Below, piece after piece: positions 29,590 through 47,212 of a DNA stretch of 64,000 nucleotides. The notes beneath the pieces are model-generated. The model saw only the letters and a program-made list of their open reading frames with translations, did not search any database and was not told where the DNA came from. The DNA is from Halicephalobus mephisto. Lineage: Eukaryota > Nematoda > Chromadorea > Rhabditida > Panagrolaimidae. The stretch spans positions 620,001 to 684,000 of the forward strand of contig SWDT01000005.1 in assembly GCA_009193035.1 (NCBI GenBank), in the 5' to 3' direction. Every line of letters begins with the position of its first letter. Position 1 is the first letter of the stretch. The position numbers were made by a program, and so were the translations under genes.

Positions 29590-29700
29590 CAAGAGAGTAT
29601 CTAAGTGTTGGATCGTCGCTGAGGAATCCGGATTCGCGTGTAGACACAAATACGTGAAAATAAATTTATTGGGGCCACAGGCACGAGATAAATCACAACT
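29590..29700 (-). repeat. Possible LTR-like fragment, second copy
   Basis: On the minus strand ATCTCGTGCCTGTGGCCCCAATAAATTTATT is followed by a GC-richer tail. It resembles the block at 7425-7660. The AATAAA would suit a repeat-region polyadenylation signal. 29701-30935 holds AT-rich DNA without a recognisable gene, plus a degenerate repeat (~30455-30660) related to 36565-36745. Confidence 0.3.
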
Positions 29701-30935
29701 CTATCAAAAATACTGCGCAATCTCAAAATCGCCGCCAAAAGGCAATCGTACGTCTTTCGTTGATCCTCAGGGTATTTCCCTTCGAGACCAAAGTTATACA
29801 ATCTTCTACTCAAATAGATTTTGCGCAATCCAACACTAAGAATATTATGAATGCTCAACTTAACGACAGTAACGATTTATCATTTGAAGTCGCAATGTGA
29901 GGAGATGCTTTGCTTTCATTTTTCAATGGATGCAGAGGTATCCAAAAAGGGAATTCTTTATATAAAAATTACATTTTAACCTTTTCCCCTTAGAATTAAA
30001 CGCTTTTCAAAATATTTAATGTAGTATAAGAGTAATTAGATGGAAATTATTTCCTAATCTAATTCAAAAGTAACTCGTTACTTAATCATAAAATGAGAAT
30101 TTGCATGTTAAATCAAGTATGTTCTTGGGCATTAACAGATATGCAGTAGAACTTGGATATAAGATACCCTAGTTATAAAATATCTCTTGTTATAACATAT
30201 GGTGTGAGTTTGATTAGTCTGTCTTCAAATTTACCCTTGCTATAATATATCCTTTGTTATAATATACACTTTCCCCAGTCCCTAGGGGTGCCTTATGCCC
30301 AAGTTCGACTGTATTAATATCTGTTTCTGAAAAGTTCACTTTGCTCATTCCTGACTCTTCTTTTTTGAATTAATTCGATTTAAATTCAAGTTTTTCTAAC
30401 TTCGGAATCCACGATTTTGGAATTGAATTTTGTTCAAAATTCGAAATAATCAATTCCAGTAATCAGAATAGAAAAAATTAATCATGTGATATTTGTGTTT
30501 GTCGGGAAGAAAACTAAACTAAAAAGAGAAAACCTGAAGCAACAGCCCGAATGTCAGGAAGCGTGGAATACTGTAGGCCATGAACAAGATTCGGTTTTGC
30601 TGTATGAAATATAATAATTATTATCTGTCTTATTCTGCTACTAAAAATCACTAAAAATTTTTTCTATCCAAATAGTGTTGTGATTTTAAAAAAATTTTTA
30701 CTAAATTAATTTTAAAACTTTAGACTTTTAAATTCATAAAGATATTATTAAATTTATTTAACATTTTTATAAAATAACTCAATTTTTCTCGATTTATGAT
30801 GAAATTGGAAAATTATAAAATTTTCATTTTTATGATTTTGATAAGAGCAATAAAGCATTTTTTGTTCATCCTGGTCACGAAAAATCGACGATTTTTATTC
30901 AATCATCAAGTATTGCTGAATGGTCGGTTTCGACC

Positions 30936-32029
30936 ATGATTGTCTGCAGTACTTTTGCTGATATTGACACACATCCTCTTTTGCAGAATTTGTAAGTTTT
31001 TTAAAAATTTCTTAATTTATTTAAATTGTTAAATTTCTTTATTTAAAATGTTAAATTTCTTTATTTAAAATGTTAAATTTCTTTATTTAAATTGTTAAAT
31101 TTCTGTATTTATTTAAATTGTTAAATTTCTTTATTTATTTAAATTGTTAAATTTCTGTATTTATTTAAATTGTTAAATTTCTTTATTTATTTAAATTGTT
31201 AAATTTCTTTATTTAAAATGTTAAATTTCTTTATTTAAATTGTTAAATTTCTTTATTTATTTAAATTGTTAAATTTACTTACAGCAATGCGATTTTACAA
31301 GTTGTTAGTTGTCATCGAGTGGAACATTGTGGAATGCTGTTCATTAACTGTATGACCCAGGACAAACGTGAAATTTCATGTTGTGGACCCATCGCACTCT
31401 GCAATCCCGAAAAAAAACTAAATCCAGGAGATTTGATAGAGTTGGAAAACGTCTATCGATGTATTTTCATCGATAAAATTTCTAACTTTTCTAAATCAAA
31501 CCTAAAAATTCATGGAACTTCAGTCGTCAGAGTCATCAATTCCAAAGACAACTCCAAACAGAAGATCATCCCGTGGTCTCCAGAATCGTTTTCGCAGCCT
31601 CTCAAAAGGTCTCACATACGGTACTCCAAGGCTCCATCTGGTGCTTCTGTTCGGGAACTTGATGATAAAAAAAGTAAATTATTTTTTAAATTTTTTTGAA
31701 TTTTATTTTCAGTAATTGGAACCATCGAATCTGACCTGAAACTTACGAAGGATTCCACTTACAAATACGATACATACGTGACTAATTTGATTCTTTTCAA
31801 TGGATCCAGACTAAAATTGGTGATTTCGAAAGAGTTCGGAAATTGGCCCTGTCGTTTTCTTCGTCAAGGCCACCTAGTTTCTGTCGTCAGAAAACCGAAT
31901 ATGGGTTACGGTATGCAAACCATACTTGTCGAACCTGGTGATCATCTGGATGTCGTTTCTGATGATGAAATCTCTCTCGTCAAGAAACCTACCGTACGAG
32001 TTCTACGAAGCTATCCTGTTCGAAACTAA
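30936..32029 (+). CDS. Double OB-fold-like protein, divergent paralogue
   Basis: Exons 30936-30991, 31285-31673 and 31713-32029 agree in phase (253 residues). It has the same plan as the genes at 32384 and 46156: an ~18-20-residue first exon ending in phase 2, then two segments with alternating hydrophobic strands resembling OB folds. Segment 1 runs from NAILQVVSCHRVEH through NPGDLIELENVYRCIF; segment 2 from IIGTIESDLKL through GMQTILVEPGDHLDV. It lacks the proline-rich tail of the other two and has an extra intron between the segments. I infer nucleic-acid or protein binding from the fold only; no known family was recognised. Intron 1 is a TTGTTAAATTTCTTTATTTA tandem array. Confidence 0.65.
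31003..31275 (+). repeat. Tandem repeat in intron 1, 23-31-base unit
   Basis: About ten copies of AAATTGTTAAATTTCTTTATTTA, some with an extra TTTA. The array fills nearly the whole intron. Confidence 0.9.
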
Positions 32030-32383
32030 ATTTTCGATTTTAATTTAACAAAAAAGGAAGAAAGAAAAAATTTAACATTTTTGTTCATTTGTATAATTTT
32101 GAACGTTTCTGTCTTAAATACAGTATCTTTTGAAATCTAGACAAGTTTATTTATCAAATTTATGGACGAAAAGTCAGTTGATCACAGTGAATAATAAACG
32201 AGACATGTCAAATGTTTCTTTTTTTCTGTTCCGTCTCATGGAATCATTAGAGGATTATAAACCTGTTGATAAAAATATAGATAAACTTTCCTGCTTTCTT
32301 CCCTGCATCAATTTAAGAATAATCTACTTCATTGACCGTTTTTCCTTTTTTGATTGGTTGCAAACAATTTCTTCGTTTGAAAA

Positions 32384-33515
32384 ATGTCATTCGACGTCTC
32401 AACTTCTGATGATCTTAAAAAATACGCATGCGGAGAACATTGGTAGGTATACAAAAATACATATTTTTACTTTTAAATCTTTCAGTCAAGCGGTTTTGGA
32501 AGTAACGAATGTGAAGACCGTGAATGCTGCGAAATTTAAGAAAACCATCATCCAGGGAAGAACCAGTGATTCAAAGTACATAGTCATCACTTATAATAAA
32601 ATGATCAGACTTGATCTAATGCTGGGAGATATCGCTTTCTTCATGGATACAGTTGTCGGGAGATATAAGGATAGAGAAAATCACTTCAACTACGACTGGG
32701 AGTTAAAAGAAAACTCCAAAATCCGGCTTCTGAAGAGGAATGGAAATGACATTGGAAAAGATGTCTTTCCTGGTGCCCCTGAGATTACTCCACTTCTCAA
32801 TGCATTCAACAATCAGAAGAAACCTTCAATGAACGAAACCCCGAATCCTGGTTTTGTCAAAAAAGAAACTCAAAAACCTGTAAATACAGCTCTACCGAAA
32901 AAAGGCCCATTGAGAAGCAAAAATAAAATTAATGATTCCAAATCTCTCTATTCTGTAAAACTCCCCTATGCGAAGAAGTCAGTTATTCAAGGACATCTTG
33001 AAGAAGAATTCCGGTCAGAGAGGATTCTTGAAAATGGAAAAGAGAAAGAGTACTTCTTTGCTGATGTTCGAAAAATTGAAGGAGAATTAATCTCAGTGAT
33101 GGTATCCAAGACAGTGATGTTGCCTTTGATCCTGAAAAAAGGTTATCTTCTTCAACTTAACGGAAACGATCAGCAATACAACGGTAAAACCACCAGAGTT
33201 ATTGAAGCCGATAGTCAGATCATCTTCAAAGGGCTTGGAAGATTTGAAGAGCAAAAAGATCAGATAAAGAAAGTTCCAGAGATGAGATTAAATCCGTCTC
33301 AACCCAAACTTCATGAAAATGCAAAAACTATGGAAGAAACGCAAATTCTAAAGCTGAGCTCTATTTCTTCCCGAACTCCGCCCATTCCTCCTCCCCGGCC
33401 AAATTCAATAAACACAAATAATGCTGATACTAGACAAAATAATCCTTCATTTCCTGACTCTTTACCTTTTTTTGGAGGTCGTCAGCCACCTCATACAAAT
33501 TGGTCTTCGAAATAA
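32384..33515 (+). CDS. Double OB-fold-like protein with proline-rich tail, copy A
   Basis: Exons 32384-32442 and 32486-33515 around a 43-base intron (362 residues). After a 20-residue start, segment 1 (QAVLEVTNVKT ... LDLMLGDIAFFMDTV ... KIRLLKRN) and segment 2 (SVIQGHLEEEF ... ISVMVSKTVMLPL ... DSQIIFKGLG) each show the strand-turn rhythm of an OB fold. They are separated by a basic, proline-containing linker (PNPGFVKKETQKP). The C-terminus carries PPIPPPRP and ends GGRQPP plus a short tail. No signal peptide or membrane span; likely intracellular. The first half is nearly identical in DNA to copy B at 46156, including the intron; the second half is not. Function unknown; OB assignment is by pattern and unproven. 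Confidence 0.75.
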
Positions 33516-33561
33516 CCAAGTACTGATTTGAAATCAAGTATCGCATTCTTTATAACTCAAT

Positions 33562-33728
33562 TATACACATAAAAAGAGTACATTAAAATGCTTCTAATGC
33601 ATCTGATACATTGTATTTAATGTACCGATATTGACTTGATATATTAGTACATCGAATACAATGTACTTCATGCATCAGAGCTGTTTTAATATATATATAC
33701 ATTATATATCATGTATCCATTTTTGTGT
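33562..33728. repeat. Dispersed ACACAAAAAT-type repeat, copy 4
   Basis: Starts ACACATAAAAAGAG and ends CATTTTTGTGTATAAC, with GATACATTGTATTTAATGTACC and TGTTTTAATATATATATAC inside. The ends are roughly inverted. Just downstream of the OB-like gene. Confidence 0.65.
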
Positions 33729-34163
33729 ATAACTATTTATTTTTGGTTATTATAATATTTCAAACATAATTAACATATATTAATAAATAATGCTTTTGTA
33801 TCTGCTGCAGAACCTTGACGACTATGGAAGAATGTTTTTGTTTCATGTTTTTATATTTAGATTTGCCAACAACTGTATGAAGAAAGCAGCAAGAATCTGT
33901 AGCCAAGTTTGCCCAAGTTTTGCATTATACAATAAATAGGAATCTTCTTGTTGCTAATAGAAGATTCTGTTTTACAAACTTCATAATTGTTATTACTCCT
34001 TTACTTTTCTCCACAGTAGTTAAAACACAGAAATAAGAAGGTATGCGTCTAGCTGGTTGATGTCCAGATCTTGACTATGACTCACAGTTAAGATTCTCTT
34101 GATTGTTAACATGTTTTTAGATATCAATCAGTTCGACAATACTTCAGGTTTTTGTATAAACTT

Positions 34164-34443
34164 GTAGGCATAAAGATCGGAGTTAAACTGCAAACGGCCT
34201 AGACAGAATGCCCAAAGCTCCATCCAGTCAGCCGACGCCTGGAAGGAGAAACTAAAGTGTTAGAGAGTCAGCCTTTGAGAGAATCCAGCTTTAAACTGGT
34301 CCGAGTTTGACTTCGATTGAACGAGGACCTTTCCTCTCTTGTTCTATGCTTATGTTAAGATAAACAGGCTTAATTTCTAATGGTAGGAATCAACAGTTTT
34401 CCGCCCAATGAAGGAGCTCCCAAGGTGTCACACCATCGACATC
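34164..34443 (+). repeat. 280-base dispersed repeat, copy 1
   Basis: About 90 percent identical to 43970-44249 in the same orientation, with abrupt ends. It includes GCCCAAAGCTCCATCCAGTC, CCGACGCCTGGAAGG and TAATTTCTAATGGTAGGAAT. A short block at ~43665-43700 (CCAAAAGCACCGCCCAATCA) resembles its first part. No coding potential; nature unknown (element, or promoter-derived duplication). Confidence 0.85.
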
Positions 34444-34712
34444 CAATCAATAATATACCCACAATACTACATTACATAACTGGCACTACCACAATCTTCA
34501 AAAACATATTTTCCTTCTGATATAACATTAGAATTTTTTGATCATTCTGTTTATCAAAAGAATCCAAATCCTAATTTATCGATCGCAGAAGATTAGGGAA
34601 TTCTTACATATTTTAACTTTTATCAAATTATGAAATAGTCGAGAATTGTGATGCAAATGACTTTATTTTTAACCAATTTCTGTATTATATTTTTATCATG
34701 TTATTTCAAGAA

Positions 34713-35298
34713 TTATCCACTGCAACGGCCGCAAGTGAGGGGACATTGTTGGGTCTGAAATGGGAAGTTTAAAATATGCAGGTGGTTTTGAAACAAACCA
34801 TGAGGGTGTAGTAGGCGGAGTTGTTGCAGAGATAGGACACAGAAGGACAGTCACTGGTTCCTGTTGACGGATTTATTTTGTCGACACCTTTAAATCATAT
34901 TATTTAAGTAAAAAAACGAAAACATACAAGTTGAAGAAGGTGTTGATGAACATCTGCCACAGGTTTGTCCGCATTGTTGAGTCATCAAATCCTGAAAATT
35001 GTTCAGTGATTAGGTAATAAAAATCAACTTACATAGTAAATAGAGTTTGAGCAAAGGTTAGCATTAGCAGCACAGTTGGAAGCTACATCAGAGCACGTCG
35101 AGGGAGTCGTGGTAGTTGTTGGAGGAGGAGAAGAACAACACAGTCCGGAAAAACAACCGTATCCTACAGGACAAGCATCCAAGATACATGCTAAATAAGC
35201 TTTATTTTTAAAGAAGATACTTCTAAAAATTTACCTCCAATACATTGTCCAGTAACTAAGTTGAAACAGGAAAATACGACAATCAGGATTTTGATCAT
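34713..35298 (-). CDS. Secreted ShKT-domain protein, two-domain copy
   Basis: Five exons in agreed phase: 35235-35298, 35033-35190, 34928-34991, 34799-34887, 34713-34754 (138 residues). A signal peptide (residues 1-~18) is followed by a short cysteine cluster (QCIGACILDACPVGYGC...), a threonine-rich spacer and two ShKT domains. Each domain is split over two exons: a CSDVASNC...LCSNSIYY half with a DLMTQQCGQTCGRC half, and a CPSVSYLCNNSAYY half with a TQQCPLTCGRC half. ShKT domains are small six-cysteine modules common in secreted nematode proteins; presence of the fold does not imply a toxin. Intact. The neighbour at 41671-42733 is an expanded copy. Confidence 0.85.
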
Positions 35299-35342
35299 CC
35301 TTTCAGATCCACAGCTATTGTGAAATGAAAGAAATGGAGGGG

Positions 35343-35350
35343 TTTATAAA
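35343..35350 (-). promoter_or_regulatory. TATA-like box of the ShKT gene, copy 1
   Basis: Minus-strand TTTATAAACCCCTCC, ~50 bases before the start codon, repeated identically upstream of the second ShKT gene (~42778). Further upstream both genes share a C-rich CCCCCCAAT block (plus strand ~35404 and ~42841). Confidence 0.65.
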
Positions 35351-35419
35351 GCCTTCAAGGTCAGAAGTCAGACATATATTTCCGGCAAATCTAAACAAAA
35401 TCCACCCCCCAATCAAATA

Positions 35420-37464
35420 AAAAAATTCAAGTTGTGTATCCAAAAAAAAGGTGGGTAAATTTCCAATCAAGCTACTGCACAGCGCAACGGAGAAATAGAC
35501 AACATAGGATCTCCCCAGAAAAACCCATTGTTGAAAAAATGCAAGCTCTTTATTTTGCTGGCTACCGTAGCTCAGGATTTAACAGCATTGCAAATGTGAT
35601 ATCGCTATTGAATTCAACATAGTCCATTACTCCTTAAACATCCTGTTTACTTTCTGTGATCTATGTTTATCTGATTTCTAAAGAAAACCTCATTTGACTC
35701 TGACCAAGACCACAACTATTGGTTTTGAACTTTCGAATCACACTTTGAATCGATTTCGAAAGATCGACAGCTCTGATCAACATCATCAGGTTGAAGGATG
35801 GTCGGAAGAGTTCTATCTTCAGAATTCCATAATTGTTATTGACGAATTGATAAACTGAAATTTCTTCTGGCAAATGTTCAATTGCCGAAAGCTGACGATC
35901 AGAAAATAATCTGTGACGGCTGAACACTCCAAACTACTCTTGGAAAGCAACAATGAAACAGGGATCTTGGAACTTTCAGATGATTCACAAATCAGATTAT
36001 AAATGTGCTATTCATTGTAAGGAAGTGTGCAGAAAATGAGTGCAACTCTTTAGTATTGGAAGTCTCAGAGATTACCATATTATCAGAACACAGGTAATTC
36101 CAAGTAGTGTGATTTCTCAAAATAGAGTATTAATAGCTTCTTTGATTTTCGAGAAAATTGGGTGTTGCCTACTTCGTGGTCCATACTATAAACAGAATGA
36201 GTATTTCTGCGAGTGACTGAACACAAGTTTCCGGGAATTACAAATTATTCAGAATCTAAAGTTTCATATATTTATTTTATAATCATTACTGTAAAAGTCG
36301 AAGGTAAATGGCATTACGAAACTGCGTCGAGACGAATCCTAATGATTCACTAGGAATTACAGTGGTCTGTGTGACAATTTTGGTCTTCTATGGTAATTTC
36401 ACGATTTTGCAATTGAAGTTTTATAATTCCTAGCCCTAAACGATGTTTAATGAAAACATGATTCAGATCATGCCCACGTCATACAGCATTTCCTTTTAAA
36501 CAGCAATATGAATGACATTCAAGAGGAGAAAGTAAACAGTCGGATTTAAATTATTTAAAATACATTGCTGTCATTGTTAGGACAGAAACTACTAGAAAGA
36601 GAGCACCCGAAAAGATAGTCTGAATATCAGGGATCATGAAGTATTATAGGACATCAGTGGGACCTCTGGTTGTCTTGTGTGAGTAGTAATATATACATAT
36701 ATAATCGCTATCTGTCTTATTGTTGCGTAGAGATTATTAATATACTTCCTATCTCTATCCTAACACGGAAAATAAGAAATCTCAAGATTCGTCATTTTGG
36801 GCGAATTGACGAAACGTGACAGAAATAATTGTTCTTTCTCCGGAAACTTGGATGAGAATCTGCTTTTGTAGAGTTCTACAACTTTCACAATATAATAAAA
36901 TAGCTATTGAAACTACAGTAAATATTAGAATTAGTGGCTATTAGAGTGAGCACGTTTTCTTATAATTGCTGCAGACATCATTATTTTGTTGTGCAATTTT
37001 TTCTGCATAAGACTTTCCAAAGATAAAACAAAATAGAAATTTTCGTTATAATGACTTCACTAGCACAATGTCTGTCCACGAGCCGCATGGGGAATATTCA
37101 CCGGGCGTTGTGTCTCTATTATTACACCTGGACTAGCAAACATCATACCACATATTGGATCTACCTGCTGCTGATATCATGATCAAAACTCAAATCATAA
37201 TCGGATACTAACTTTCCCGAATATTCCTCCTAGTCGCATTTTCTGTGAAAATCCAATACCTTATATTCAAACTCAGAACATAACAAGTCAGCAACTGAGA
37301 CTATTGCGCAACATTGCACAATATTAATGTCTGTGTAAAATAAGGTCGAACAGAAAATACTAGTTGAGGGCAGAACTATCGAATCAAAGACCAATTCTGA
37401 GCGTGTATAAAGGTCGATTGAACTAAACTTGATTCTATTTGATTGTACTTTTTGTCTAGCCAAG
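35420..37464. other. Intergenic region with degenerate repeats
   Basis: No gene recognised. 36565-36745 resembles 30455-30660, and 36763-36850 resembles 39918-40010 (AAGAAATCTCAAGATTCG words). A TATAAAG at 37406-37412 probably belongs to the kinase-like gene downstream. Confidence 0.5.
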
Positions 37465-39399
37465 ATGACCGCTGAAGTTGGAACTGAAACTACTTCTACT
37501 CCAAACGGAGGAGGACCTTCAAAGTTAGAGCCTGTGAATGGCTTGACGAAGAAAGTTGCGGGAGATGTATTCGATGGGTGGAAGACGTTGACTGGACATT
37601 CCTTCACTGCCGGATTTGCGGTTGAAAGTCTGAGAAGCAATGATGAGGTATATAAGAAGCTCCATGGAGACAGACCAATCAAAAATGTAAGTTTATAAAA
37701 TAATTTTTGTGAATTCAGTTACTATGAGTTTTATTGAAAGAGTTCCTGAATAATGATTAGTCTTAACAGTTTTCCATATTTTGGGTTACAATGATATTTT
37801 CTTATTGGAACTATCAAATTCGGTATTCATAAAACAGCTTTAATGGTAACTGATATATGAACACTATCTATTTTCGCGTTAAAAGCACCTCAATTAGATT
37901 AACAACTAAGTCGTACACTCTTCAGGTGACTGCTTCCGATGTGAGCAACGGCAAGTTTCATGTCCGAAGTCCTTCGGTGCATCATCCACTTTGTTGATTT
38001 CGCTTCCGAATCTGACATCTACAGCACTATTCTCAAAATCCCCGGAATGGAGTCGTTTGAGGCTGTGAATGAAACCTCCGCAACCAAAATTCTTCTAGAC
38101 GATAAAATGATGAAGAAAATGCTAAATCTTCATCAGACTGAAGTTGACTTCTATGAACATTTATCCAAGACCGTTGATATTCCCATTCCTCGTGTCTTCA
38201 AAACCCTTCCTTGGGAACTAGGAGAGACTGAAGGATTAGTGCATATGGAGGATATGACTGGAAGAGGAATTGTATTAGACCACAGTAATTCCTTGACCAT
38301 TTCTCAGATCAAAGAAATTACCAGGCATCTGGCTCATATGCACAGAATGGTCTTGACTTCGGAAGATGAAGAGTTCAATTCCTGGAAAGGGGAACATAAT
38401 GATAATCAGTTTAGCTTTGCGTCATTTTGTAAACTGTTAAATGATCCAGAGCTATTCTTGGCTATCTGCGGAGATAGAAGTGATTTTGATTACTTCAACA
38501 TGGATAAGTATTGTCGTAGGCATGAGAGCGAATTTGAAACATTAATTTTTTTGAACTTTTGGAAAACACTAAAAATAGGTATATTTTTGATTCTTGTCTA
38601 TCTGCAGAACAGCAGTTAAGTTTCATAAAAATCTAGATTAATTCTATTAGCATTCGTGCCAAGAAAATCAAATAATTTAACATTCTTCATCAGTAAGGAA
38701 TTACCATATTTTTCGAAATGATATATACTTTTTGTATTACATGTTCAAGATATGGTAATTCTCACACTTAAAATTTATTGACTTTTTATTACCAATTATT
38801 CTAAACTCTTTCATTCTAGGTGCTTTCGAACCTTTGATCAACAAATGCATAAAGTGGGGTCAATCGAACATACATCGAGTACGCTTTCTCGCAGTCATGG
38901 AAAGACCTCAACATGCCCCAGTGATTGCTCACGGAGATCTTCACTCTGGAAATATGATGTGGAAACTAGATGAAAGCGGTGGAGTTACCAATGAAGTACT
39001 GGCTGTCTTCGACTGGCAAGAATATCACGAAGGATCTCCTATGGAAGATATAGCCAGAATCTTGACTTTTTGTTGTAATGGTGGGTACTAGAAGAGAAGC
39101 AGAAGAATTCATCTTCGATTTCTACCTTGAACAACTACAAAGGAAATGAGGAAGTCGGAAAAGAGGCTCCGTATACTTTAGATCAGGTCAAGAAGGCTTA
39201 CAATTACATGTATCTTACTCAAGCTTATGGACTGATTATGATACCTAATTTTCTACAGGAATTCTTCAAAAACGACAGTCCTGGATTGAAACAAGCCAAA
39301 ATAGACACGGTGATTCTCAGGTGCAAACATGCTTTGGAGGATATGAAGAGACTTTTTGACGGGGAAATGAAGGATGTTTATGACAAATATGAGCAGTGA
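37465..39399 (+). pseudogene. CHK/DUF1679-type kinase-like gene, frameshifted
   Basis: Nematode-expanded small-molecule kinase family related to choline/ecdysteroid kinases. Exons: 37465-37686, 37926-38578 and 38820-39399, joined by normal GT-AG sites. Family blocks: DVFDGWKTLTG, VTASDVSNGK, LKIPGMESF, VDIPIPRVF, GLVHMEDMTGRG, the catalytic-loop HGDLHSGNMMW (~38930) and the metal-binding VFDWQEYHEG. The frame is broken by an apparent two-base loss near 37957, a one-base gain near 39083 and another shift near 39147; the downstream frames stay recognisable to the C-terminal ALEDMKRLF. Either a young pseudogene or a gene with assembly indels. A TATAAAG sits ~55 bases upstream of the start. Confidence 0.8.
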
Positions 39400-40071
39400 T
39401 TTCGTTGTTAATTACGGGATAGGGTTATGCTGTTGAAAAGCAAATATATTTTACAACCTTCTATGAGAAAGTTTCTCAGTCTAAATTTCAAGATCTTTCC
39501 GATTAAAAGTGATCACTAGGGTGTTGTGTTTACATCTTTCTGTAACAGTCTAAAACTGTATATTCGATGTAAAAATTCCAGAACTCATGACTATATATTT
39601 CGAGCTTTCTTCAAGGTCCCGATTGAAACTTAAGCATAATTCACTATCAGTCAATCAAGTTCTATTACTAGACAGATGATTCTTAACCTGAACTCCTAAC
39701 TTGATATATGAACTTTTACTACAAAGCATTCACCATTTTGCAACTAAATAAACCTATGATAATAATTGGATAAATTGGGTATTTTTCTGTAAAAATGCAT
39801 CTAAATGATTATTTGTAAGTACCAGGATAGAGAAAATTGCAAAATATATCGTAATAACTAAGTAACAACGAGAAGAAGCGAATTTAGTGGTAATTCCAAA
39901 CACCAAGAAATCTGTGGTGCTAACACGAAAAAATGAGAAATCTCAAGGTTCGCCATTTCGGGAGAATTAGCGAAGTATGATAGAAACAATCATTCTTTCT
40001 TCGGTTTTCTGATTGTCAACATTTTCCTTAAACCTGCTGTTAATTCCCAATTAGAATTTTCATTGTTTTTA

Positions 40072-41293
40072 TTAGATCGTCTCAAAAAGAATTGCTTGAT
40101 TTTAACAAGTTTATTTTTTAAAAATATTTAACAATTTTTTAATTGAGATTTATTAATGTATGATCCATTATTATCTACGATATGGTTCCATCGCTTGAGC
40201 AAAGCATCGATGCCGTCCCTATAAAACTTACCGGGCAAGGAGGCAAAATATTTGTTCAACCACGATTCTAGGTTCTCTTGATTGTCAAACTTGATTGCCC
40301 AAATGATTTGATATTGAACGAAATAAGTGATAGTCTGATGGTGCGATGTCAGGGGAATACGGTAGATCAGGTACTAATCGAAACCCAGGCTTTATAATCA
40401 TTTCACGGGTCATCAAAGCTGTGTGAGGTCGTGTATTACCGTGAAACAGGAAAACTTCGTCATGCCGTTTTCTTACGCTTATAGCGACTTTCTTTAAAAT
40501 CTCACAATATGCTTTGGCAGTAACTGTAGTTCTCTCAGGAACAAACTCCCAGTGAACAATTTCAGAAAACCGCGATCATCATCTTCTTCTCCGTGAGTTT
40601 ACCTTTTACATATGGAATCCCTGTTTCTCCACGTCCCAGTCACTGATGCCTGTTGGTGTGGTTTGCGTAAAGTACAAGCTTTTCATCACCGGTAACTAAG
40701 TCATGAAGCCAAGCCGTTGTATGTTTGAAGTGAAATGCATACAGGAACCCGCATGCTCAGCTGAGGCTGAGTAAGTTTGTGAGGTATCCATTGTCCGTAT
40801 TTATACACTTTTCCCAATGAATGCAGATAACGGGCAATTGTGTTCTTGGAGCACCCAAACCGATGTGCCATATCACGTGTTGAACGAGCCGGATTTGCTT
40901 CAATGACAGCATAAAGCTTTTGTTCATCCAGAGTCAAAAGGACACCTGGTATGGGCTTGTCATCGAGATTGAAGTCTTCTTCACGGAAGCGGTGGAACCA
41001 AAGTTCAACTGTATGTTGACTGAAGACATCTGGAGCTCTACATTCACACATAGCTTGATGAGCTTTAGGTGCAGAGTAGCCCATACGGAACAAAAGAACA
41101 AGCATGACTCGAAGTTTGCGTCGGTTGAAAAATAAATTTTCCGTTATAAATATACAAACTAAGTTCGAAGAAATCTTTAGTAGATTGCTTAATGCTTGTG
41201 CTATTTATACTAAAAGTATGGAACATTCCAGAAACTTCTAAAAAAATCTACGAAATTCTACTTAAATCTAGCAATTCTTTCGAGACAACCTAA
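40072..41293 (-). mobile_element. Mariner-family DNA transposon relic
   Basis: Imperfect terminal inverted repeats of ~26 bases lie at 40072-40098 (TTAGATCGTCTCAAAAAGAA...) and 41268-41293 (reverse complement TTAGGTTGTCTCGAAAGAAT...). Between them, on the minus strand, runs a decayed transposase. Length ~1.2 kb, normal for mariner. Confidence 0.85.
40128..41126 (-). pseudogene. Mariner transposase pseudogene
   Basis: The N-terminal helix-turn-helix region is a long open stretch (41105-40701) with FRMGYSAPKAHQAMCE, HTVELWFHRFREEDFNLDD and STRDMAHRFGCSKNTIARYLHSLGKV. Later, in broken frames, come the first catalytic block VTGDEK, then YSPDIAPSDYHLFRS with the last catalytic aspartate, and the RWNHIVDNNGSY terminus. 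Several stops and shifts make it inactive. Confidence 0.85.
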
Positions 41294-41670
41294 TATTTAG
41301 TATAATAAATTTTTGTATAGCATCTGAAAAGAGTATTTAAAAGCTATTGATTTAAAACTTTCAGATCAAATTCCAAACCGATTTTTAATCAAATGTAAAT
41401 CATTGAAGTGGTTCAAGTTTCAAAATTAAAGTATTAAAAGTCTAAAAAATAAAATCTGTCATCCATTTCCTTTAAGTACACAAATTGCTTCGTGCCAAAC
41501 AATATTATAGTTGAAAAAGATAAAAACGCGCCATCTGAGTAAACAAATTCAACGTTTTACTTCCTGTGATTTAAAAGTACACAAATATGTCAAAGATAAT
41601 GAACCTGAATGCAGATAACTTTATTTCTATCCAATTTCTGTATTATACTTTTATCATGGTATTTCAAGGA

Positions 41671-42733
41671 TCATCCACTGCAACGGCCGCAAGTGAGGGG
41701 ACATTGTTCAGTCTGAAATAGAAAGTTTAAAATATGTGAGTGGTTTTGAAACAAACCATGAGAGTGTAGTAGGCGGAGTTGTTGCACAAATAGGACACAG
41801 AAGAACAGTCGCTGGTTCCTGTTGACGAATTTACTTTGTCAACACCTGTAAACTATATTAGCTAAATAAAAAAACAAAAACATACAAGTTGAAGAAGAAG
41901 ATGTTGATGAACATCTGCCACAAGTCCGTGCGCATTGGTCATGACGGTCTGAAATTATTAATTATATCTGTAATTAACTAGGTGATGTTACATAATAGGT
42001 AGTATTCTGACAAAGATATGACAGCGAAGCACAGTTGGAAGCCACATCAGAACCTGAAAGTCATTTTTACCTTTACAAAGTGATAAACTTAAATCCTACA
42101 AGTGGTGGAAGAGGATGTTGATGAACATCTGCCACAAGTCAGTGCACATTGTTGAGTCATGACAGTCTGAAAAGTATTAATTACATCAATAAATAATTAA
42201 GTAGTATTACATAATAGACTGTTGTTTTGGCAGAGATATGACAACGAAGCACAGTTGGAAGCCACATCAGACCTAAAAACGAATTATATTTAAAAAGTAT
42301 AATTTTTAATTTTACAAGTAGTAGTAGAAGAAGAAGAAGAGCATCTTCCACAAGTCAGTGCGCATTTCTGGGTCATCAAGGTCTGGAAATTCTTTAATAA
42401 TTATTAAAAAAAGTTAACATACGTAATAGGCAGAATTGGTGGAACAGAGGTAAGCATAAGAAGCACAATTGGAAATGGTATCCGAGCATGTTGTGGAAGA
42501 TCTGGTGGTCGTTGTAGGGGTTGTGGTCGTTGTAGTTGTAGTAGTAGTTGTAGTTGCTGGATTAGAAGGACAACAATTTCCAGCGACACAAACTAATCCT
42601 GCAGGACAAGTGCCACCGAGACATGCTGAACAAGTTTTATTTGTGAAGGAAATACTTCCAAAAACCTACGTCCCTGACACTGCCCGGCAATCAGACCAAC
42701 GTAAGCAAAAGCTAAAATCAGGATTTTGATCAT
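41671..42733 (-). CDS. Secreted ShKT-domain protein, expanded four-unit copy, C-terminus frameshifted
   Basis: Nine exon-like blocks: 42670-42733, 42423-42625, 42316-42382, 42211-42272, 42100-42166, 41992-42053, 41886-41948, 41757-41845, 41671-41712. The first encodes a signal peptide; the second a cysteine cluster, a polythreonine spacer and the first ShKT half. Blocks 3-7 are repeated 62- and 67-base exon pairs with CGRC-ending halves. Two defects: block 4 has a one-base loss and a later one-base gain that keep the length but change ~18 residues and remove the ShKT cysteines; block 7 lost four bases (63 instead of 67), which brings a stop early in block 8. So the gene may end early or be a recent pseudogene, unless splicing skips blocks 7-8. 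Confidence 0.65.
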
Positions 42734-42775
42734 CTTTCCAAATTCACAGCTATAGAGGAATGAAGGAAATGGAGG

Positions 42776-42786
42776 GGTTTATAAAG
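42776..42786 (-). promoter_or_regulatory. TATA-like box of the ShKT gene, copy 2
   Basis: Minus-strand TTTATAAACCCCTCCATTTC at the same distance from the start codon as in the two-domain copy. Confidence 0.6.
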
Positions 42787-42859
42787 TCTTCAGAATCAGA
42801 GGTCCAATGTGTTTGTTTCAGGAAAATGCAAAAGGTTCGCCCCCCAATTGGACATAAAA

Positions 42860-43969
42860 ACTGACATTGTGTAACTAGAAAACAGGTGAACAAATCTGGA
42901 AATAAACTATTGTTAAATTAGAAATCAACACTGTTACACATGATCAGATACGAATTTTGAGAACTTATAAAAAAACCATCCTGAGCTTAAAATTTCATAT
43001 AGTTATTTTAAAATCATACAATTACAAAAATCAAAGTTAATATTTGTTATGATACTGTCTTAATTTCAATTTTAATGACTAGTCAAAAACTACAGTAGTT
43101 GGTGGGATAATGTTAGTTTTTTGTAGTGAATTCGTAATCTTACAAGATTTTGCAATTAAAATTTTAGAAATACTAGTACTTAGTAATCTTTAGGCAAGAA
43201 GGCAATCAGATCATGTCTGTAGATTTTACTATAATTTTTGTTCTTTTGAAAATCTTTCAACTATTAAGTCATACTGCAACTAATTTATGTATTTTTTATA
43301 TGCTGAATCGAATTACACTGCATAATATATTCTAATAATCTGTTACTTCATGGAATTCTGTTTTTATGTCTTTTGTAAGTGAATTCTGCTGTTTGCTCAT
43401 GAAATGACAGTTCATGAACAAAATGACAAATCATCAATTTCTATTGACAACCGGTCTACGTGATTTTTAAATTTTTATAATACACACTCAAAACAACATC
43501 ATGATATTCTATCTAGATAGATCTAGAAACTTCTGAAGTACATTACAATAATAAGGAAAACTGTCTACACACCCATAAGGATGAAATATTATACGTTAAG
43601 ATATTAAGGAAATCACAGCTGTAGACATCAAGAACGGAATTCAGCTTGTGGGACGACCTACATGACGTGCCAAAAGCACCGCCCAATCACACGACGTTGC
43701 AAAAATACCATAAAAAGCCAGAATGTAAAGTCTAAATTCAGTCTTTCTATGTAATTGTATCTTCAATTTGTTTCCACATCATTTGAGTCTCCAAATTTAG
43801 TTGAAGACAATCAGACGGTAATTCCCTCTTCCTTGGTCAAAGTCTTGAGTAATGAATACAACCTGGTATGTTCTGCATATATGGTAGGAATTTATAGTTT
43901 CCGTACGTTAAAGGTATCTAAAAGTTCTAAAAATTCTAGTGGTCCAGTGTATGAAACCTATTTGTTACT
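42860..43969. other. Intergenic, no gene recognised
   Basis: AT-rich to ~43600. At ~43665-43715 lies a block with CCGCCCAATCACACGACG and CATAAAAAGCCAG spaced like a CCAAT and TATA pair. The open frame that follows (43755-43973) has no recognisable features. Confidence 0.4.
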
Positions 43970-44249
43970 GTAGGCATAAAGATCGGAGTGAAACTGCAAA
44001 CGGCGTAGACGCGATGCCCAAAGCTCCACCCAATCAGCCGACGCCTGGAAGGTGAGACTAAAGTGTTAGATAGTCAGCCTTTGAGAGAATCCAGCTTTAA
44101 ACTGGTCCGAGTTTGACTTCGATTAAACGAGGACCTTTCCTCTCTTGTTCTATGCTTATGTTGAGATAAACAGGCTTAATTTCTAATGGTAGGAATCAAC
44201 AGTTTTCCATCCAATCAAGGAGCTCCCAAGATGTCACACCATTGACATC
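43970..44249 (+). repeat. 280-base dispersed repeat, copy 2
   Basis: Same sequence family and orientation as 34164-34443; it ends ~30 bases before the piggyBac-like relic. Confidence 0.85.
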
Positions 44250-44276
44250 TCATCTTTACTATATCAATACTACACT

Positions 44277-45530
44277 GACGAGATTTTGGAGATAATTGTG
44301 CAAGAGACCAACAAATACAGCTATAAGAAGAACCAAAACTGGATCCACACAGATAAACAAGAGATGTTGAACTTTCTTTCTGTGGTCCTACGAATGAGCG
44401 TGGTTAAGCTGCCAAAACTGAGGGACTATTGATCAACAAATCCCATTCTTAGCTCTAACTGTAAGATCATGTCTCGCAACCAATTTAAGCAGCTAATTTT
44501 CAATTTACACTTGATGAACAATGATACGTTCAATGGAACGTACAGACTCTACAAAATTTCGAACTTTTTGTCGGTTTTCATAAAAATTGCCAGGTTGTTT
44601 GTACTCTTGATAAGAACATCTGCATAGATGAGTCTCTAATCCTTTTCCATGGACGGATTGTCTTTAAACAATACATTCCCAATAAGTGATATAGGTATGT
44701 GATCAAGATGTTTCAACTTTGCTGTGATGGAGGCTTTACTTACAATATGAGAATATGTGCTGGCAAGATCAATCGGCCTAGATTGGGGTCATTATCTAAG
44801 GAAGTGATGCTCAAGATGATGCATTCCGAACGTGCTATATATGCAGATAATTGGTACTCCAGCTTATCCCTAGTGAAGAAATTACCAAACAGAAGGACTA
44901 ACTATGTCGGAACCAAAAAGGAATTTCATCTGCGATCACACAAAGAAGACTTAAACAACGAGAATATATGGTGAGACAGAATCGAAATGGGGTAATAATT
45001 TTAAAATGGAAGGATAAACGGGATATTTTGATGATTTCATCGAATCAAGGCAACACAGTTGATGAGCAGAAGACGTCGGAGGTGACCAAAGACTACAATG
45101 AGAACAAATCATTTGCGGATTTGTCCGGTCAAATGACAGCATATTCATCCTTTATTCGGCGAACTAGTAAGTGATATGTTAAAGTTTTTTTCACATTGTC
45201 TATCAGTTGGCGGTTGTTAATGCATGGAAGATGTATACCAGTTTGCAACAACTCATTTCTATTGGTGATTTTAGAGTAACTCTGATTGAAGAATTGCACG
45301 ACATCAAATTGGAAGCATCAGCAAGGAACCACTGCTTAAAGATACCATCAGGATCAAGGAGATTTTCTAAGCATCGTTGTGTTAATTGTTATAAACAAAT
45401 GCCAATAACTCGTGGGACGATAGAAACCAGATCCAAATGTAAGAAAACAAACATTTATTGTAATAACTGTAACAAATCTTATTGTCTGGGTTGTTTTAAC
45501 AAAAAGCATAGAATTTGTTTAATTCAATGA
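44277..45530 (+). pseudogene. piggyBac-type transposase pseudogene
   Basis: Recognisable in order despite stops and shifts: KLPKLRDYW, MSRNQFKQL...LHLMNND, the first catalytic block ICIDESLILFHGRIVFKQYIPNK, a CAGKI strand, the second block IYADNWYSS followed by YVGTKK, LKWKDKRDIL with the third aspartate, and a C-terminal cysteine-rich zinc-ribbon-like end (RCVNCYKQ ... CKKTNIYCNNC ... CLGCF). Internal stops occur near 44431 and in the first catalytic block region. I could not place terminal repeats or TTAA target duplications. Confidence 0.85.
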
Positions 45531-46155
45531 GTAAATTTATGATTTTTCTATTTTGTTAATGTGAATGACTCGTGGATTATATTGAATTGGATCATATTTA
45601 CTATGATATAGATAGGATCTTCGTAAACAATCATAAAAAAGAAAAATTTCGAACATGTGCTTTTCATCGAAAAAAATCACACTGAAAAGTGTGACTCACC
45701 ATGAGTGTCACGCCATCCAAAACAGCAGTCAGACTGCAACACTCAGGGATGTCACGTACGTGTTAAAAAATAGCTGAAAATGGACAAAAATATACTCATT
45801 CATTTTAGTCAAGAATTTTGTGAAGAATTTCAAGTTTATTTTGAATGCGTTTTAAGCTTTAGTATTGCCTGCAAAGCATGATATAGGACTATAGAGAGTG
45901 ATTTAGAAAAAAATAGCCAAATATCGTCCCGAAAAGTATTCTTTAATCAATATAATGTTATAGAAACAACACAAATTGATCAAATACAACTTATCTTTCT
46001 ATTGTATTTTATGGAATAATTACTGCAAATTGAAGCTGGCTGATAAATGATATAGATAAATTTTCCTGCCTTATTCCTTTTTTTGCATTGATTGGAAAAT
46101 AATTTGCTTAGTCGAATAATTTTTATTGGTTGTAAACAATTTCTTCGTTTGAAAA

Positions 46156-47212
46156 ATGTCATTTAGCGTCTCAACTTCTGGTGATCTTAAAAAATACGCA
46201 TGCGGAGAACATTGGTAGGTATACAAAAATACATATTTTTACTTTTAAATCTTTCAGTCAAGCGGTTTTGGAAGTAACCAATGTGAAGACCGTGAATGCT
46301 GCGAAATTTAAGAAAACCATCATCCAGGGAAGAACCAGTGATTCGAAGTACATAGTCATCACTTATGGTAAAGCGATCAGACTTGATCTAATGCTGGGAG
46401 ATGTCGCTTTCTTCATGGATACAGTTGTCGGGAAAAATAAGGATAAAGACAATCACTTCATCTATGACTGGGAGTTGAAAGAAAACTCCAAAATCCGGCT
46501 TCTGAAGAGAAGCGGAAATAACATCGGAAAAGATGTCTTTCCTGGTGCTCCTGAGATTACTCCACCTTCCAATGCATTCAACAATCAGAAAAAACTTTCA
46601 ACGAACGAAACCCCGAATCCTGGTTCTGTCAAAAAAGAAACTCAAAAACCTATAAATAAACCTCCACAGAAGAAAGAACGACCCAAAAAAGTAGATAAAC
46701 GAGACGATTCTAAATCAGATATCTCCAAGATCTTTACTAACAAGGCGAAAACTCAATCTATCCAAGGATATTTATATGAAGACTTCAAAACGGATATGGT
46801 CAACGATGGCGACAAACGACTCGAATTCTTCGTGTCCAAAGTTGAAAAAGACGATGGAAACATAGTCCCGATGATGGTCTCAAAGGCCGTCATGTTGCCT
46901 TTGCTCCTGAAGAAGGGCTACCGTATCCATCTCACCGGACAAGACATTAACTTTTACGGCGAAATCACCAGAATTATCGAAAACGATAGTCAGATCATCT
47001 TCAAAGGATTCGGGAAGTCTGAAGAACACAAAAACCAGTTGCGAAAGGCTCCGGAGTTGATGAATATTCCGTTTCATAACCAGCACCTGAACTACAGCTC
47101 GGCTCCGTTGTACTCAAGAACAGTGAATAACCCCAACAACACAGGCTTTGTCCAGATGCTTGAAAATTTCTCACAACTTCTCGGAGGACGTCAGCCACCT
47201 CGTTCAAATTAG
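46156..47212 (+). CDS. Double OB-fold-like protein with proline-containing tail, copy B
   Basis: Exons 46156-46214 and 46258-47212 around a 43-base intron identical to that of copy A (337 residues). Segment 1 differs from copy A by only a few residues. The linker (PPQKKERPKK) and segment 2 (QSIQGYLYEDF ... MMVSKAVMLPL ... NDSQIIFKGFG) are clearly diverged but alignable. The C-terminus lacks the PPIPPPRP run of copy A but ends with the same GGRQPP motif. Upstream, the ~110 bases before the start also resemble copy A. Intact; role unknown, likely the same class as copy A. Confidence 0.75.

Follow-up and report, generated by a model that had tools for sequence, protein, structure and literature searches.

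A 64,000-nucleotide stretch of the genome of the nematode Halicephalobus mephisto (assembly GCA_009193035.1, contig SWDT01000005.1, positions 620,001 to 684,000; hereafter the window) contains three genes, which we call A, B and C. They encode members of a protein family that seems not to have been described before and is predicted to carry tandem OB folds, two per protein. The window lies in the contig we call C113, in a genome of 59.9 Mb. Members of the family are spread over the genome, end in different C-terminal tails, and show tracts of unequal divergence between paralogues. Based on their predicted folds, we consider it probable that these proteins clamp single strands, of either DNA or RNA.

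A family of proteins with two predicted OB folds

The reading frames and splice sites place genes A, B and C where the original prediction put them, and confirm the short first exon with a phase 2 end that it described (Table 1). All splice sites in the three genes are GT-AG, with three exons in A and two each in B and C. Exon 1, of 56 or 59 bases, ends in phase 2 in every case. Gene A has a first intron in phase 2 and a second in phase 1. An intron in this second position, just before the second OB fold (OB2), also interrupts the two R-type genes counted (types are defined below), likewise in phase 1, and is absent from B and C. Intron 1 is common to all three branches of the family, and the tails differ.

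AlphaFold2 models both gene B exon 2 and full-length P0004, a relative of gene A, as two beta-barrels. In each domain the barrel is five-stranded and matches solved OB folds. Fold searches with the models returned OB folds of POT1, Teb1, RPA, HIN and SSB proteins, with single-stranded DNA-binding proteins leading. The proposal of two OB folds per protein is thus supported by models in two branches of the family and by fold searches in which POT1, RPA and SSB are among the matches. The first PDB match of the A-type model in Foldseek was OB1-OB2 of human POT1. In the fold comparison OB1 is nearest to the RPA, POT1, Teb1 and HIN kind and OB2 to the SSB and PriB kind. The two domains are predicted to be joined by a long disordered linker in the models of both B and the A-type relative. 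The Foldseek alignment of the latter covers both domains with a root-mean-square deviation of about 19 Å and a predicted template modelling score (pTM) of 0.46, so the orientation of the domains is not predicted. The net charge of OB1 plus linker is +6 in A, +14 in B and +10 in the paralogue at C174:39k.

The three genes had been described as a three-member family. They are indeed homologous, but the family is larger: searches with A, B and two paralogues identified 12 loci in the genome, on six contigs besides that of the window, and using P0003 and part of P0006 as genome queries yielded no further loci. These counts are lower bounds. The A-type loci are A, C111:375k, C191:340k, C29:186k, C235:244k and C16:40k; the B-type loci are B and C; and the R-type loci are C174:39k, C191:202k, C174:132k and C174:532k. 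At C235:244k OB1 alone was found, C16:40k has five stops in frame, and C174:532k is short with an unclear start. We obtained two-domain gene models for nine of the 12 loci. At ten loci a model of exon 1 was possible, with a phase 2 end every time; these first exons loosely share a motif around S-[ST]-x-x-[ED]-I, read by eye from the alignment.

Protein searches, in which detection requires shared five-residue words, identified seven homologous proteins outside this genome. P0003, P0004 and P0005 are each named 'hypothetical protein' in Halicephalobus sp. NKZ332, and P0001, P0002, P0006 and P0007 are sequences from unplaced contigs. The family has so far been seen in Halicephalobus and in the unplaced contig sequences. 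Gene A is 46% identical to P0004 and gene B 50% identical to P0001. P0003 has an additional OB2-like segment, seen as two matched stretches in the profile comparison.

Both domains could be aligned across all three branches by profile-profile comparison. Cross-branch profile matches reached 87.7 bits, compared with full-sequence scores of at most 10.8 bits for 3000 shuffles of six proteins. Gene A taken alone is a weak link, with 13.4 bits to the RRM-type profile and no listing by the B-type profile, and is connected to the other branches via its paralogues. The A-type, B-type and R-type sequences group separately in a tree of 15 of the 17 sequences, built without P0002 (OB1 only) and the truncated C235 copy. 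This tree is partly resolved, with full support on four of 12 inner branches and long branches that meet. The C16 copy and the short C174:532k copy are in no alignment.

Pfam searches with A, B and C returned nothing at E≤10. PDB sequence searches with single proteins gave chance hits at E≥0.44 (for example, a 3C protease and a copper ATPase), and searches by profile gave one chance hit at 0.76 in one run and none in the other. In NCBIfam, RRM-containing models matched one member and nothing else scored below 0.03. No RPA or SSB family was matched in Pfam at E≤10, and no RPA or SSB chain appeared in the PDB sequence searches. The family core matches no Pfam or NCBIfam model at cut-off, the RRM tail of some relatives excepted; this agrees with the failure of the original prediction to recognise any described family. 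Sub-threshold Pfam matches to DUF5110, TPPII, Diphtheria_T and PH_BEACH were set aside. Among the titles and openings of abstracts listed from the open-licence PMC literature, searched also for the NKZ332 locus tags and for OB folds with CaaX or prenylation and RNA-binding, we found no description of such a family. The fold itself is already known. We know of no earlier case of a double-OB core joined to a CaaX-like end or to an RRM of PABP type.

C-terminal tails and unequal divergence of paralogues

Tails differ by branch, being a PABP-like RRM, a CaaX-like end, a GRQPPxxNW peptide, or almost nothing. The tail at C174:39k is an RRM (Pfam, 9.8e-13). The RRM at C191:202k is weaker (4.2e-4; 20.6 bits against a cut-off of 20.7), and P0007 has one (Pfam, 3.1e-13) in the same position as C174:39k. 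RRM_1 was found in two of the ten scanned proteins of the genome, both R-type and with one matched stretch each, and in one of the 11 aligned members. The solved chains closest to the C174:39k RRM are from PABP; the best single domain in two alignments was RRM1 of human PABP1 (53.4 bits). The RRM of P0007 is slightly nearer to RRM2 than to RRM1 of PABP chains. PABP is defined by four RRMs plus an MLLE domain. This architecture was not seen in our Pfam scans, which gave a single RRM_1 stretch per positive protein and listed no MLLE family; the family differs from PABP in having one RRM after two OB folds, with key aromatics changed, and none in A, B and C. C174:132k ends in ...KKCPWCPIL and P0006 in ...KKSCSIL, and we take these CxxL ends following lysines to resemble CaaX prenylation signals. 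GRQPPxxNWSS is common to B and P0001. Gene C ends in ...GGRQPPRSN, without the last WSSK of B.

To describe selection we used the ratio of nonsynonymous to synonymous divergence (dN/dS). By NG86 this was 0.28-0.36 among three A-type copies, with gene A giving 0.28 and 0.32 against the C111 and C191:340k paralogues, and YN00 gave 0.33-0.37 for two A-type pairs. NG86 also gave 0.32 for OB2 of B and C and 0.32 for the OB1 half of the pair C174:39k and C191:202k. The ratio is unreliable in tracts of low dS, where NG86 gave 0.74 and 1.55. The copies diverge fast, as had been proposed, and selection on them looks mostly purifying.

This divergence is unequal along the genes. Per 50 columns, B and C are 88-100% identical from 32342 to 32891 and 40-82% identical over OB2, with gaps counted against identity, and dS (NG86) is 0.13 over residues 1-165 versus 1.35 over residues 175-290. 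The pair C174:39k and C191:202k, located on different contigs, shows the reverse, with dS of 0.77 over residues 1-150 and 0.035 over residues 151-245; the similar tract is about 400 bases long at 88-100% identity and includes the second intron. Strong selection on one domain would be insufficient to explain the identical introns and low dS of these tracts. As the simplest account we infer that roughly one domain at a time was exchanged, by gene conversion or in some other way. Domain-sized swaps of this kind would recombine OB1 and OB2 variants. Because the paralogue pairs differ mainly in one OB domain, they are natural chimaeras for testing what each OB fold recognises.

Probable nucleic-acid binding and alternative explanations

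Tandem OB folds clamp single-stranded nucleic acid in POT1, Teb1 and RPA. We propose that the OB1-OB2 pair of this family would do likewise, and that the C-terminal tail would decide the site of action or the partner, through a PABP-type RRM, a CaaX-like lipid-anchor end or the GRQPPxxNW peptide. The copies would diverge fast under mostly purifying selection while swapping domain-sized pieces. A clamp on a single strand fits the tandem predicted OB folds, the disordered linker and the positive charge of OB1 plus linker. The view that these are candidate nucleic-acid-binding proteins is likewise supported by the predicted folds and their matches to single-stranded DNA binders.

Several results weigh against this proposal. 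OB folds also bind proteins and sugars, and the fold does not show the ligand. Whole-query TM-scores were only 0.16-0.34 among the matches listed, and the net charge of OB2 is zero or weakly negative (0, 0 and -2). POT1PC matched none of the ten scanned full-length proteins of the H. mephisto genome. Compared with PABP1 RRM1, the C174:39k RRM has H in place of the RNP2 Y and E in place of the RNP1 Y. Such aromatics usually stack on RNA and are here partly lost, and RNA binding by this PABP-like RRM of the R-type is doubtful on that account. With regard to selection, YN00 gives a higher dN/dS of 0.56 for OB2 of B and C, the RRM part of C174:39k and C191:202k gives 0.67, and dS of 1.2-2.0 among the A-type copies is near saturation, which makes their dN/dS rough.

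It is unlikely that the family serves RNA regulation, with a double-OB core that holds mRNA or small RNA and a PABP-like RRM that, in one branch, points to the main context, such as poly(A) RNA, translation or germ granules. The nearness of the C174:39k RRM to PABP among solved structures, together with an RRM in the same place in P0007, favours RNA for one branch. However, the RRM is limited to two R-type proteins of the ten scanned, and in one of these it falls narrowly short of the Pfam cut-off; it was not reported for P0006 and not found in C174:132k by Pfam scan; and its RNA-stacking aromatics are changed. Because the P0007 RRM is slightly nearer to PABP RRM2, a single capture of RRM1 is not established. 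Quite improbable is a divergent POT1 branch at telomeres, with OB1-OB2 on the single-stranded overhang beside, or replacing, canonical POT1. The human POT1 match of the A-type model points this way, as does POT1PC, the best weak Pfam lead, which was below cut-off in two of the 11 aligned members (best E 0.0042); for P0004, where the match covers OB1, E was 0.0091. One survey describes clade IV nematode proteins with this single-stranded DNA-binding domain as having no recognisable orthology to C. elegans POT proteins, and suggests strong divergence or recruitment of other proteins (PMC10844300). Against this, no member reached the cut-off of POT1 (PF02765) or POT1PC (PF16686) among the three window proteins, nine paralogue exons, 11 aligned members and ten genome proteins, and a separate gene at C93:813565 is over the POT1PC cut-off. 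Two POT1 homologues, TERT and TTAGGC repeats are already reported for H. mephisto in the genome paper (PMC6872716). The family shares two tandem N-terminal OB folds with the POT1 DNA-binding domain (3kjo, 1xjv) but is only about 10% identical to it in the fold alignment, its OB2 is best matched by SSB and PriB, and a dozen dispersed loci with differing tails are unlike a telomere cap. A PF02765 search of the genome gave no match, which we do not count as absence since the controls were also matchless.

RPA-like proteins of some Helitrons and LEF-3 proteins of baculoviruses are examples of accessory proteins of transposons or viruses. A comparable origin of this family, with members that have been domesticated or still move, is very improbable. 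The presence of copies on several contigs and a viral-model fold search in which LEF-3 was first (SSBs were also matched) are consistent with it, as are the Helitron-rich repeats reported for H. mephisto in the genome paper (PMC6872716). Some of the DNA flanking gene A also recurs at other copies: 29598-29853 at the C235 copy, 30141-30320 at C111, and short pieces at C191:340k. However, both longer pieces are common dispersed repeats genome-wide. We therefore rejected flank-sharing as a signal of mobility, and a transposon origin is unsupported by it. One degenerate sub-threshold Helitron_like_N match lies about 150 kb from the nearest copy, in a weak test with no control matches; two intron positions are conserved, and selection looks purifying.

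The family also differs from other known systems. No Teb1 chain (Tetrahymena) or RPA70 chain was found in the PDB sequence searches. Unlike bacterial and mitochondrial SSB or PriB, the family has its SSB-like domain second in a two-OB chain and matches no Pfam SSB family. HIN domains have two OB folds packed with a short linker; by contrast with HIN-200 proteins (IFI16, p204), a long disordered linker is predicted here, and no HIN chain was found in the PDB sequence searches. The family would be of interest as an apparently undescribed tandem OB-fold family in a nematode group where divergence has made the single-strand telomere proteins hard to recognise, and as a case where one double-OB core carries several different tails. 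It might represent a lineage-specific toolkit for binding single-stranded nucleic acid, in which the core is recombined by domain-sized gene conversion and carries exchangeable address tags, as would be expected under intragenomic conflict; we regard this broader idea as unlikely. If it is true, the conflict might, for instance, be one with selfish nucleic acids that the worm defends against, or a contest over chromosome ends in a species that reproduces by parthenogenesis.

Coordinates and surroundings of the genes

Table 1. Genes A, B and C, their predicted OB folds and the shared tract, in window positions
Feature	Position	Strand	Structure or basis
Gene A (A-type, 253 amino acids)	30936..32029	+	exons 30936-30991, 31285-31673, 31713-32029; reading frame, splice sites
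Gene A predicted OB fold 1, approximate	31286..31567	+	alignment to P0004 model
Gene A predicted OB fold 2, approximate	31715..31960	+	alignment to P0004 model
Tract common to B and C	32352..32891 (C: about 46125-46665)	+	exon 1, identical intron 1, OB1, part of linker
Gene B (B-type, 362 amino acids)	32384..33515	+	exons 32384-32442, 32486-33515
Gene B predicted OB fold 1, model residues 1-93	32487..32765	+	AlphaFold2 model ma33401fec4c5; two-domain Foldseek alignments
Gene B predicted OB fold 2, SSB/PriB-like, model residues 166-250	32982..33236	+	
Gene B C-terminal tail GGRQPPHTNWSSK	33474..33512	+	P0001 tail similar
Gene C (B-type, 337 amino acids)	46156..47212	+	exons 46156-46214, 46258-47212
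Gene C predicted OB fold 1	46259..46537	+	alignment to B
Gene C predicted OB fold 2, approximate	46757..47009	+	alignment to B

Intron 1 of gene A is nearly filled by an AT-rich tandem array (31005-31276) of 10-11 copies of a 22-26 base unit. Of the two dispersed repeats upstream of this gene, 29598-29853 has 40 scored matches of 318 candidates genome-wide, and 30141-30320 has 89 matches from 40 scored of 538 candidates and is also present beside the C111 paralogue, in four copies that are 78-81% identical. The gene over the POT1PC cut-off spans C93:813565-813816. A nearby upstream open frame reads by eye like POT1 OB1, and this gene may encode a two-OB POT1, in contrast to C. elegans, where the POT proteins have a single OB fold.

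Between B and C there is a 309-column repeat, at 34163-34471 and 43969-44274, that is 91.6% identical and on the same strand; it may have helped the duplication of these genes or exchange between them. The same interval contains a DUF1679 gene fragment at 37945-38616 (2.2e-6, over cut-off) and, on the minus strand at 40704-41204, the N-terminal part of a Mos1/mariner-type transposase (HTH_48, 1e-10).

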